Of a stretch of DNA of 40,785 nucleotides, positions 21,746 to 24,230 are shown piece after piece. The stretch's first letter is position 1; each line of letters begins with the position of its first letter. The stretch is taken from contig CALGTK010000450.1 in the NCBI GenBank assembly GCA_937904325.1, positions 1-40,785 of the forward strand. The letters are read 5' to 3'. Made by a program: the position numbers and the translations under genes. The notes beneath the pieces are model-generated. The model was not told the origin of the DNA. It did no database searches and saw only the letters and a program-made list of their open reading frames with translations. The DNA is from an uncultured Planctomyces sp. GTDB taxonomy: Bacteria > Planctomycetota > Planctomycetia > Planctomycetales > Planctomycetaceae.

Positions 21746-22684
21746 TCACGTTGGGACGCGTGTGCTGTCGAGAATCTGGCGGATGACGCTGCGGGCGCGT
21801 TCTCGCTGTCCTTCTCGAACAAGGCCTTTGCAGGCGACTCGGTGAGCGAGGACGGATACTGCCAGTTGCTTAACGTCGTCAGGCGTGACGAAGTCGCGGT
21901 TGTCGATGACTGCCTGAGCCTGGGCGGCTCGATAAAGCGTCAACGCTCCTCGCGTACTGACCCCGAGTGTCAATTCCGGATGTTCGCGCGTGGCCGTTAC
22001 GATGGCCAGTAGGTAGTCGCCGATCGAATCTTCAACCTGCACGTCACGAGCTGCCTGTTGCAGACTTTCGAGTTGCGAAGGCTCGAGCACCGGCTGTAGC
22101 TGATCGACTGGCTGGCCGCTGCGGTGCAGTTTGAGAATGTCCCGCTCGACGCTGAGTTCCGGGTAACCGATCGAAATGCAAAGCATGAATCGGTCGAGCT
22201 GGTTTTCCGGCAGGGGAAACGTTCCTTCGAACTCGAACGGATTCTGCGTGGCGAGTACGAAGAACGGCGGAGCAAGGGGGTGAGTGGTCCCCTCGATCGA
22301 AACCTGGCCCTCGTTCATTGCTTCCAGTAAGGCGCTCTGAGTTCTCGGTGTCGTCCGGTTGATTTCGTCGGCGAGCAGGACGTTTGTGAAGATCGGCCCG
22401 CGGCGAAACTCAAACTCGCCCTTGTTCGGCAGAAACACGCTCGAACCGAGGATATCACTCGGCAGCATGTCAGGCGTGAACTGCAACCGCGTAAAGCCGC
22501 TGTTGATACTTTTGGCAATCGCCTTGGCCAGGGACGTCTTGCCGACTCCCGGAGCGTCTTCGATCAGGAGATGCCCTTCTCCAATCAATGCGACCAGTGC
22601 CAGACGAACTGCCTCCGGCTTCCCGATGATGGCCGACTCAATGTTTTCTGCAAGCTTTTCAACAAGCGGGTTTACCTCAGACAC
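21746..22684 (-). CDS. MoxR-family AAA+ ATPase
   Basis: MoxR ATPases are cytosolic chaperone-like AAA+ proteins that usually work with DUF58 and von Willebrand A proteins. The 312 residues contain Walker A GVGKTS (46-51), the LPSDILGSSVF insert typical of MoxR, Walker B VLLADE (102-107), sensor 1 ATQNP (145-149), and LPENQLDRFML. The start is GTG 22684, with GAAAGAGG upstream. No DUF58, VWA or transglutaminase gene follows; the next gene is an unrelated membrane-protein pair 215 bp away. Its partners are therefore encoded elsewhere. It lies 45 bp downstream of a disrupted ACP-like gene on the same strand. Confidence 0.92.
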   Translation of the reverse strand: MSEVNPLVEKLAENIESAIIGKPEAVRLALVALIGEGHLLIEDAPGVGKTSLAKAIAKSINSGFTRLQFTPDMLPSDILGSSVFLPNKGEFEFRRGPIFTNVLLADEINRTTPRTQSALLEAMNEGQVSIEGTTHPLAPPFFVLATQNPFEFEGTFPLPENQLDRFMLCISIGYPELSVERDILKLHRSGQPVDQLQPVLEPSQLESLQQAARDVQVEDSIGDYLLAIVTATREHPELTLGVSTRGALTLYRAAQAQAVIDNRDFVTPDDVKQLAVSVLAHRVACKGLVREGQRERARSVIRQILDSTRVPT

Positions 22685-22729: not shown

Positions 22730-23063
22730 TCACATATTCGCTTGCATCAATTTCGCGAGACACAACACCGTGATCGCTTCCCAGTCATTTTCGCCACCAG
22801 GGGACGTGAACTCTTTGTTGCTGATACTGACAAAGAATGTCTCTCCTCCATCTGTATGACCAGTTCCATAATGTCCAGTTCGTCAAAGTTAAGCTCGCCA
22901 AAAGTTGCGGCAGTTTTTGCGGCATCGTAGGAGACACTGATTTGCCGCGAAACAATCTGTCACATTGTGGTGGTCGTGTCATCGTGACGGAATGACAAAA
23001 CAGCAATCCGCCAATGACGACAAATAAAGGCCCGTAGATGACGCAGCGAATCACTGACGGCAT
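22730..23063 (-). pseudogene. frameshifted acyl-carrier-protein-like gene with N-terminal hydrophobic segment
   Basis: The three minus-strand frames each carry one piece of an apparent single protein. From ATG 23063 the first frame gives a membrane or signal segment (IYGPLFVVIGGLLFCHS). From about 22959 a second frame gives DAAKTAATFGELNFDELDIM then ELVIQMEERHSLSVS, which closely follows helices I-II of acyl carrier proteins. From about 22834 the third frame gives ISNKEFTSPGGENDWEAITV then LCLAKLMQANM and a stop at 22730-22732, which fits the last ACP helix. Two frame changes are needed, near 22955-22970 and 22821-22835. The expected DSL motif, whose Ser carries phosphopantetheine, reads DEL. 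I call it a pseudogene; sequencing indels are the main alternative. Confidence 0.6.
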
Positions 23064-23298
23064 CTACTGGTTTCTGAACGAAAAACCACAGCGTCCTTCA
23101 ACGGGATATGTCTCGCGAAAATGTATGGAGCAACGACGGTCACAAAAGCCTCGCGTTAGTTTAGCCCGAGACTGAAATTCCAATGCCGCGATTCTAGACA
23201 GAATTCACTGGCATTGTCGCGTCGCAAGTCATGGTGGCTGTTCGCCAGCTATTTCGTGTCCGTCAAAGTTCAACACTCGCTGCCCGTTCCTGATGTAT

Positions 23299-23571
23299 TC
23301 AGGACTCGGGTTGTTGAATCCGTACCCCTGCTTTCAGAGCAGGTCCTGGTGGGATTCCTTCGGACTTGATGCGCCGCCTGACGGCAGAAATATCGTCAAC
23401 GCGAGGAGCAACCGGACGGCGTGTCTCATTCAGGACTCGCTTTTCAAGGGCCCGAGTTTGTCGTGCATCCGAGAATACAGTAGTTCAGGCCGCTGAAAAG
23501 GAGTTACCGGGCATCGGTCGAGGCAACTGTTCATGCCGATCAATCGAAACATTGACAACTGTCGCCGTCAA
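23299..23571 (-). pseudogene. open frame with an in-frame stop, possible gene remnant
   Basis: On the minus strand a frame from about 23592 to TGA 23299-23301 reads like coding sequence, interrupted by a single TGA at 23484-23486. Before the stop it reads VNVSIDRHEQLPRPMPG, and after it TRALEKRVLNETRRPVAPRV and IKSEGIPPGPALKAGV. The interrupted codon could be a mutated TGG. The frame overlaps the last codons of the secreted-protein gene and has only a TTG (23571) as a start near its beginning, plus an ATG at 23514. I do not recognise the family. It sits beside the frameshifted ACP-like gene, so this stretch seems to be decaying. The remaining 23064-23298 shows nothing supportable. Confidence 0.35.
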
Positions 23572-24230
23572 TTCAACGTAGCGCTGATAGCATCAACCGT
23601 GGCGCTAAGCGTATTCAGTTCCCGCCGCAGTGCGTCTGCTTCGTCATTGGCTTCTGCCGCTTCAGAAATACCAATTGTGCCAAGTGTGATGCCTGCCAGA
23701 CCGACTCCGATAGAAAACAAAGTTCCATTATCGAATGCCGCCAGCATTCCTTCTTCAGACTGGCCGCGAATTGCAAGGGCTCGTTTGATCACAAGAAGTC
23801 GCGATTCTGCAACTGGTGGGGCAATTCCGGGAGCCCAGACGCGATACCGCTTGGATTGCGAACCGACAGTTATACTCCAGATGCCGCCTTTCAGACCGGT
23901 CAATTGGAATGTCCCTGCGCCATTGGTAATTGCCTTCCGGGTTTTCGTTTTCCCTTGCCGGGCAATCACCTGGGTTCCAGGCAGCGGCAGGCCGAGTTGA
24001 TCGACAAAGCTGCCGTGCAGGATTCCACGATCGTCCAGCGCAACATCGTTAACCTCAGTCATCCGCCCGATGGATGAATAGATTTCTTCCTTCCTCTGCG
24101 AAGGCTCAACCTCAGTGCGATTCAGACGTGAAATCGGAAAATCGTCACCAAAGAGTGGCGTATTTGCCGTGAGCATTGACGTCAGGGCCAGACCGCTGAG
24201 AACAGATTTCAGGAAATGACGCATGCTCAT
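23568..24230 (-). CDS. secreted protein with a carboxypeptidase-regulatory-like domain
   Basis: A good ribosome site (AAGGA) precedes ATG 24230. The first 28 residues form a signal peptide (FLKSVLSGLALTSMLTANTP). Residues about 65-120 look like a carboxypeptidase-regulatory or SpaA-like beta-sandwich: GSFVDQLGLPLPGTQVIA, then TNGAGTFQLTGLKGGIWSI. A hydrophobic Gly-rich segment follows (IGVGLAGITLGTIGISEA), then a heptad-like tail (ADALRRELNTLSATVDAI) that may form a short coiled coil. The protein is 220 residues, and I know no specific function. Its last bases overlap the decayed frame at 23299-23592. Confidence 0.7.
   Translation of the reverse strand: MSMRHFLKSVLSGLALTSMLTANTPLFGDDFPISRLNRTEVEPSQRKEEIYSSIGRMTEVNDVALDDRGILHGSFVDQLGLPLPGTQVIARQGKTKTRKAITNGAGTFQLTGLKGGIWSITVGSQSKRYRVWAPGIAPPVAESRLLVIKRALAIRGQSEEGMLAAFDNGTLFSIGVGLAGITLGTIGISEAAEANDEADALRRELNTLSATVDAISATLN

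Follow-up and report, generated by a model that had tools for sequence, protein, structure and literature searches.

In the planctomycete contig G000:C450, of which a stretch of 40,785 nt, hereafter the window, was analysed, positions 22730 to 23063 (minus strand) carry a pseudogene (probability approximately 0.93), the remnant of a gene for a small exported lipoprotein that, once mature, consisted of an acyl carrier protein (ACP)-fold domain without the phosphopantetheine serine. This assignment rests on homology, lesions and synteny. The best overall explanation, which we regard as probable, combines this pseudogene with a family of exported, Ser-less proteins in which the ACP fold acts as a docking module. 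The window gene itself no longer makes such a protein. An earlier note, made from the sequence, had described an ACP-like gene split over three minus-strand frames, and the pieces are indeed present and join into one ACP-like protein with an N-terminal export signal (Table 1). The hydrophobic N-terminus, read in that note as a membrane or signal anchor, is signal-peptide-like, and the replacement of the phosphopantetheine Ser by Glu was likewise borne out, the codon being GAA.

Table 1 Features of the broken ACP-like gene and its neighbours in the window
Feature	Positions	Strand	Basis or remark
MoxR-type AAA ATPase gene, intact, downstream of the broken gene	21746-22684	-	context
C-terminal piece FVSISNKEFTSPGGENDWEAITVLCLAKLMQANM, then stop (22732-22730)	22730-22834	-	profile match and frame reading
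Second frame change	22835-22836	-	profile match and frame reading
ACP-like domain, helices I-II, DDTTTTM*QIVSRQ...FDELDIMELVIQMEERH	22837-22983	-	profile and single-relative matches
GAA (Glu) at phosphopantetheine-Ser position, FD-E-LD	22879-22881	-	frame reading and alignment of relatives
In-frame TGA	22960-22962	-	Arg/Lys at same site in G078/G159
First frame change	22984-22994	-	11 nt between Cys codon and DDTT codons; 12 nt in G078
Signal-peptide-like N-terminus MPSVIRCVIYGPLFVVIGGLLFC	22995-23063	-	exact reading of frames
Second broken gene, small lipoprotein with KQGYGFNN motif	23232-23429	-	comparison with congeners
220-aa exported protein gene, intact, upstream; weak CarboxypepD_reg match	23568-24230	-	conserved in G003 and G005

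Relative to intact homologues the gene has three inactivating lesions, two frame changes and one stop codon, in agreement with the suggestion that this copy was lost or frameshifted. In the alignment the Cys codon at 22997-22995 falls on the Cys of the lipobox in intact relatives (compare MLTGGC in G078), and the window lipobox, LLFC, is off consensus ([LVI][ASTVI][GAS]C) with Phe before the Cys. The second reading frame (22986-22837) reads HDDTTTTM*QIVSRQISVSYDAAKTAATFGELNFDELDIMELVIQMEERH. The intact G078 protein reads ...MLTGGCGVSRDDTTAATRQIIADQLGFAYDAVKPTTTLGELGCDELDLVEIIMSLEEQFEIYIPDAELDALSGQAGWSGITVLELANLARSKR. From the match at DDTT it follows that the domain frame reaches upstream of the TGA, which makes this codon an internal stop and places the first frame change in the short interval following the Cys codon. 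A break had been expected at 22955-22970; a lesion does lie there, but it is the stop codon, and the frame change is further upstream. The other expected break, near 22821-22835, coincides with the second frame change. Beyond it, the C-terminal piece ends as G078 and G159 do, with the family-specific pattern W....(I/V)T...L..L. An inverted repeat flanking the gene (22748-22773/23098-23123) was judged a likely chance match.

Homology was established with a profile of 13 intact relatives, the window left out, searched against all six frames. The middle frame scored 41.5 bits (E 3.6e-14) and the third, C-terminal frame matched the next profile positions collinearly (E 0.008); none of the other window frames scored. 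With the G078 protein as sole query and the pieces left unjoined, the window was recovered at E 4e-10. Conversely, a search of 98 related genomes with the joined pieces, as the earlier note had proposed, returned G078 (Planctomycetaceae bacterium DLM2.Bin10) at E 1e-12 and matched none of the others; this intact homologue has a lipobox followed by an ACP domain with CDELD. The joined piece had no Pfam match, and its weak matches to ACP families in NCBIfam were below every ACP cut-off of that collection. The open frames are each short, as they would be if the resemblance had arisen by chance in non-coding DNA, but this explanation is refuted by the profile and single-relative searches and we assign it a negligible probability.

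We favour genuine pseudogenes over sequencing errors. The assembly is a draft of 488 contigs, and the gene could in principle be intact in the organism and broken by assembly or sequencing errors. This is very unlikely in view of three distinct lesions that include a stop codon, a window lipobox that is also off consensus, and independent damage to the adjoining small lipoprotein gene, with the moxR and 220-aa genes on either side remaining open. The lesions in the small lipoprotein gene are a TGA at 23336-23334, where congeners have TGG, and a change of the lipobox Cys to Gly; the gene, recognisable by its YGFNN motif, is intact in G003 and G005. A stretch with 82% conservation (23277-23381), considered as a possible RNA, proved to be this broken gene, and no Rfam match was found in the slot. 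The interval upstream of moxR in congeners holds other small genes, encoding 123 aa in G003 and 134 aa in G005 and G004 (L167, L168, L169), which are orphans with no convincing family match. The slot before moxR is thus variable and, in the window's genome, decaying. With a cut-off of E 1e-60, 14 MoxR-type ATPase genes were counted in this genome.

The search for intact homologues yielded about 15 related exported proteins, mostly from Planctomycetia and one from Akkermansiaceae. The survey, which is not exhaustive, covered 397 genomes of the class, with the Akkermansiaceae member coming from one scan of named genomes. The position of the attachment Ser is occupied in these proteins by Glu, Asp, Gln or Gly and never by Ser, and D-x-L-D-x-V is kept: ADELD in G006, G350, G163 and G192, ADDLD in G406, G165, G113 and the Akkermansiaceae lipoprotein, ADGLD in G084 and G132, and CDELD, CDEQD, ADQLD, MDELD and GDDLD in G078, G159, G073, G115 and G367, respectively. 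The G159 gene is also broken, with one TAA inside, and G006 is from the same taxonomic family as the window. Alignment of the 13 intact domains revealed invariant D, L, D and V and a later E, columns that we take to be D35, L37, D38, V40 and E47 of Escherichia coli AcpP; the Ser site was E, D, Q or G, and no Ser, Cys or Lys was invariant within the domain. Read by eye, the lipobox is at or near consensus in most relatives (LAGC, FAGC, IAGC, LTGC), with a membrane stretch in its place in G115 and G192, and the family members are predicted to be exported and lipidated. No exported member with Ser was seen among the AcpP matches opened in this non-exhaustive survey; a phylum-wide search with one relative as query returned mostly AcpP, and five apparent exported carriers (G391, G214, G090, G353 and G237) proved to be ordinary Ser-bearing AcpP with apparent long N-termini due to upstream read-through.

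Six of the proteins (G078, G165, G406, G006, G115 and the Akkermansiaceae protein) are above the gathering score of Pfam PP-binding PF00550 (32-45 bits), and because they clear this cut-off the present annotation of such proteins is probably that of ordinary acyl carrier proteins. An AlphaFold2 model of the G078 domain (pLDDT 93.7) had only ACPs as best PDB matches (TM about 0.8), suggesting that this homologue of the broken window copy adopts the ACP four-helix fold. Of three intact pairs, one had dN 0.29 against a saturated dS, and the other two had dN 0.37 with dS 2.7 and dN 0.60 with dS 2.4. Since intact domains pass Pfam, model as an ACP fold and have dN well below dS, decay alone does not explain the missing Ser, and selection appears to maintain the intact genes. 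We found nothing relevant on exported or Ser-less ACPs in the literature searched, which left most subscription journals outside.

The family resembles AcpP (PF00550, TIGR00517) in the modelled four-helix fold, in the D-x-L-D-x-V motif near the start of helix II and in the Pfam scores of its intact members, and differs in the substituted attachment Ser, the N-terminal lipobox or membrane anchor, and a C-terminal part peculiar to the family, in which an insertion precedes the last helix. The AcpP of the window's own genome (G000:C429, L005), which adjoins FabF by sequence reading, belongs to the same fold family and matched the window query weakly (E 0.08), but is cytoplasmic, has ADSLD with Ser and is encoded by an open gene. 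Non-exported Ser-less domains with DDLD or DELD for DSLD were found in Bacteroidales (L133), Deltaproteobacteria (L134), Acidimicrobiaceae (L135) and Gammaproteobacteria (L136), none with a recognisable lipobox; L133, L134 and L136 group with AcpP and so probably represent separate losses of Ser. L136, from Gammaproteobacteria bacterium MO_103.B15, is a large predicted membrane protein with its Ser-less ACP-like domain (ADELD) near the C-terminus. In two further proteins, L045 (G318) and L050 (G077), a Ser-bearing ACP domain (CDSLD) is fused to a putative domain that has the appearance of the formylglycine-generating-enzyme type. The pseudo-ACP lipoproteins are a variant of a known fold family.

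What the ACP fold is known to do relies on an arm attached to Ser and takes place in the cytoplasm. The earlier note had suggested a non-canonical carrier. Such a carrier might hold its cargo at another residue or non-covalently. Retention of the ACP fold, the D-x-L-D-x-V motif and the acidic helix under purifying selection would suit such a role. However, the conserved D-S-L Ser for 4'-phosphopantetheine that a functional carrier requires is absent from the window gene and from all its exported relatives, the domain has no invariant Ser, Cys or Lys, biosynthetic genes were not recognised beside any family member, and there is no indication that a relative bears an acyl group. The signal or lipobox motifs speak against residence in the cytoplasm, and the predicted export would separate the proteins from CoA, acyl-ACP synthetase and AcpS. 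Lacking the attachment Ser, and predicted to be exported to where the phosphopantetheinyl transferase of the cytoplasm would not reach them, the proteins lend no support to the carrier reading, which we consider improbable.

A docking module is likelier than a carrier, and we propose it tentatively for the intact members, at somewhat less than even odds. The protein would be exported and held at the membrane by its lipidated Cys, and its ACP fold would provide a docking module without catalytic activity. The Ser site, where Asp or Glu is frequent, could not take an acyl arm, and the retained acidic recognition helix II (D-x-L-D-x-V-E...E) would bind a partner. Against this proposal, no conserved gene neighbourhood pointing to a partner was found between divergent family members, the export and lipidation motifs are those read by eye, and in G115 and G192 a membrane stretch replaces the lipobox. 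If the proposal is true, a selected, horizontally moving, extracytoplasmic and Ser-less family would use the ACP fold purely as an interaction module.

Phylogenetic analysis grouped the window with G078 and G159, from another family in the class (support 96/88), and not with G006 of its own family, which fits lateral transfer within the little resolution that about 90 columns provide. Support in these protein trees was generally weak and the exported group did not form one clade; placing the exported set on the tree takes three changes, a result that does not establish a single origin. Integron cassette arrays were observed in the planctomycetes G367, G165 and G159 (L043, L049, L037). Repeats resembling attC form an array around the G367 gene, and an integron integrase lies at a distance of about 5 kb from that gene. 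A covariance model (R1) built from these repeats, with the G165 and G159 sites not included, identified more than 20 sites across 17 kb of the G367 sequence; it replaced a simple R''/R' scan with folding that was too noisy. Such sites flank the G367 and G165 genes on both sides, as in integron gene cassettes, and one directly follows the G159 gene, whereas no attC site was found at the window locus by the covariance-model search. The family is sparse and laterally moving, mainly within Planctomycetia, and some members, as demonstrated for G367 and G165, are carried as integron gene cassettes. Several full-length integron integrases are encoded by G367. In the window's own genome assembly no integron integrase exceeded the cut-off, and attC-like arrays were present on contigs C194, C44, C40 and C36.

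The patchy distribution, the integron cassettes, the slot that congeners fill with other small orphan genes and the rapid decay also accord with immunity or competition proteins, that is, exchangeable small envelope proteins neutralising a toxin or phage component. A C-terminal module in G406, G367 and G165 points the same way, being elsewhere a separate protein or a DUF2314 fusion. No toxin gene was identified adjoining any family member, however, and a cassette location alone says nothing on function, leaving this alternative rather doubtful. Similarly speculative is a broader scenario in which a mobile, lipid-anchored and exported ACP-fold family abandoned the carrier arm, took on a role in envelope competition or defence, spread in the form of integron cassettes and was exchanged in variable slots. 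The docking module remains the reading we prefer. The C-terminal module comprises about 80 residues (VPVFxPxL...EVxxIRDxA...), has no Pfam or NCBIfam match, and occurs fused to the pseudo-ACP (L040, L043, L049), free-standing or DUF2314-fused (L170-L176), thereby linking the pseudo-ACP family to further proteins of unassigned function. In the cassette neighbouring the G165 gene, a separate small lipoprotein carries the first part of this module.
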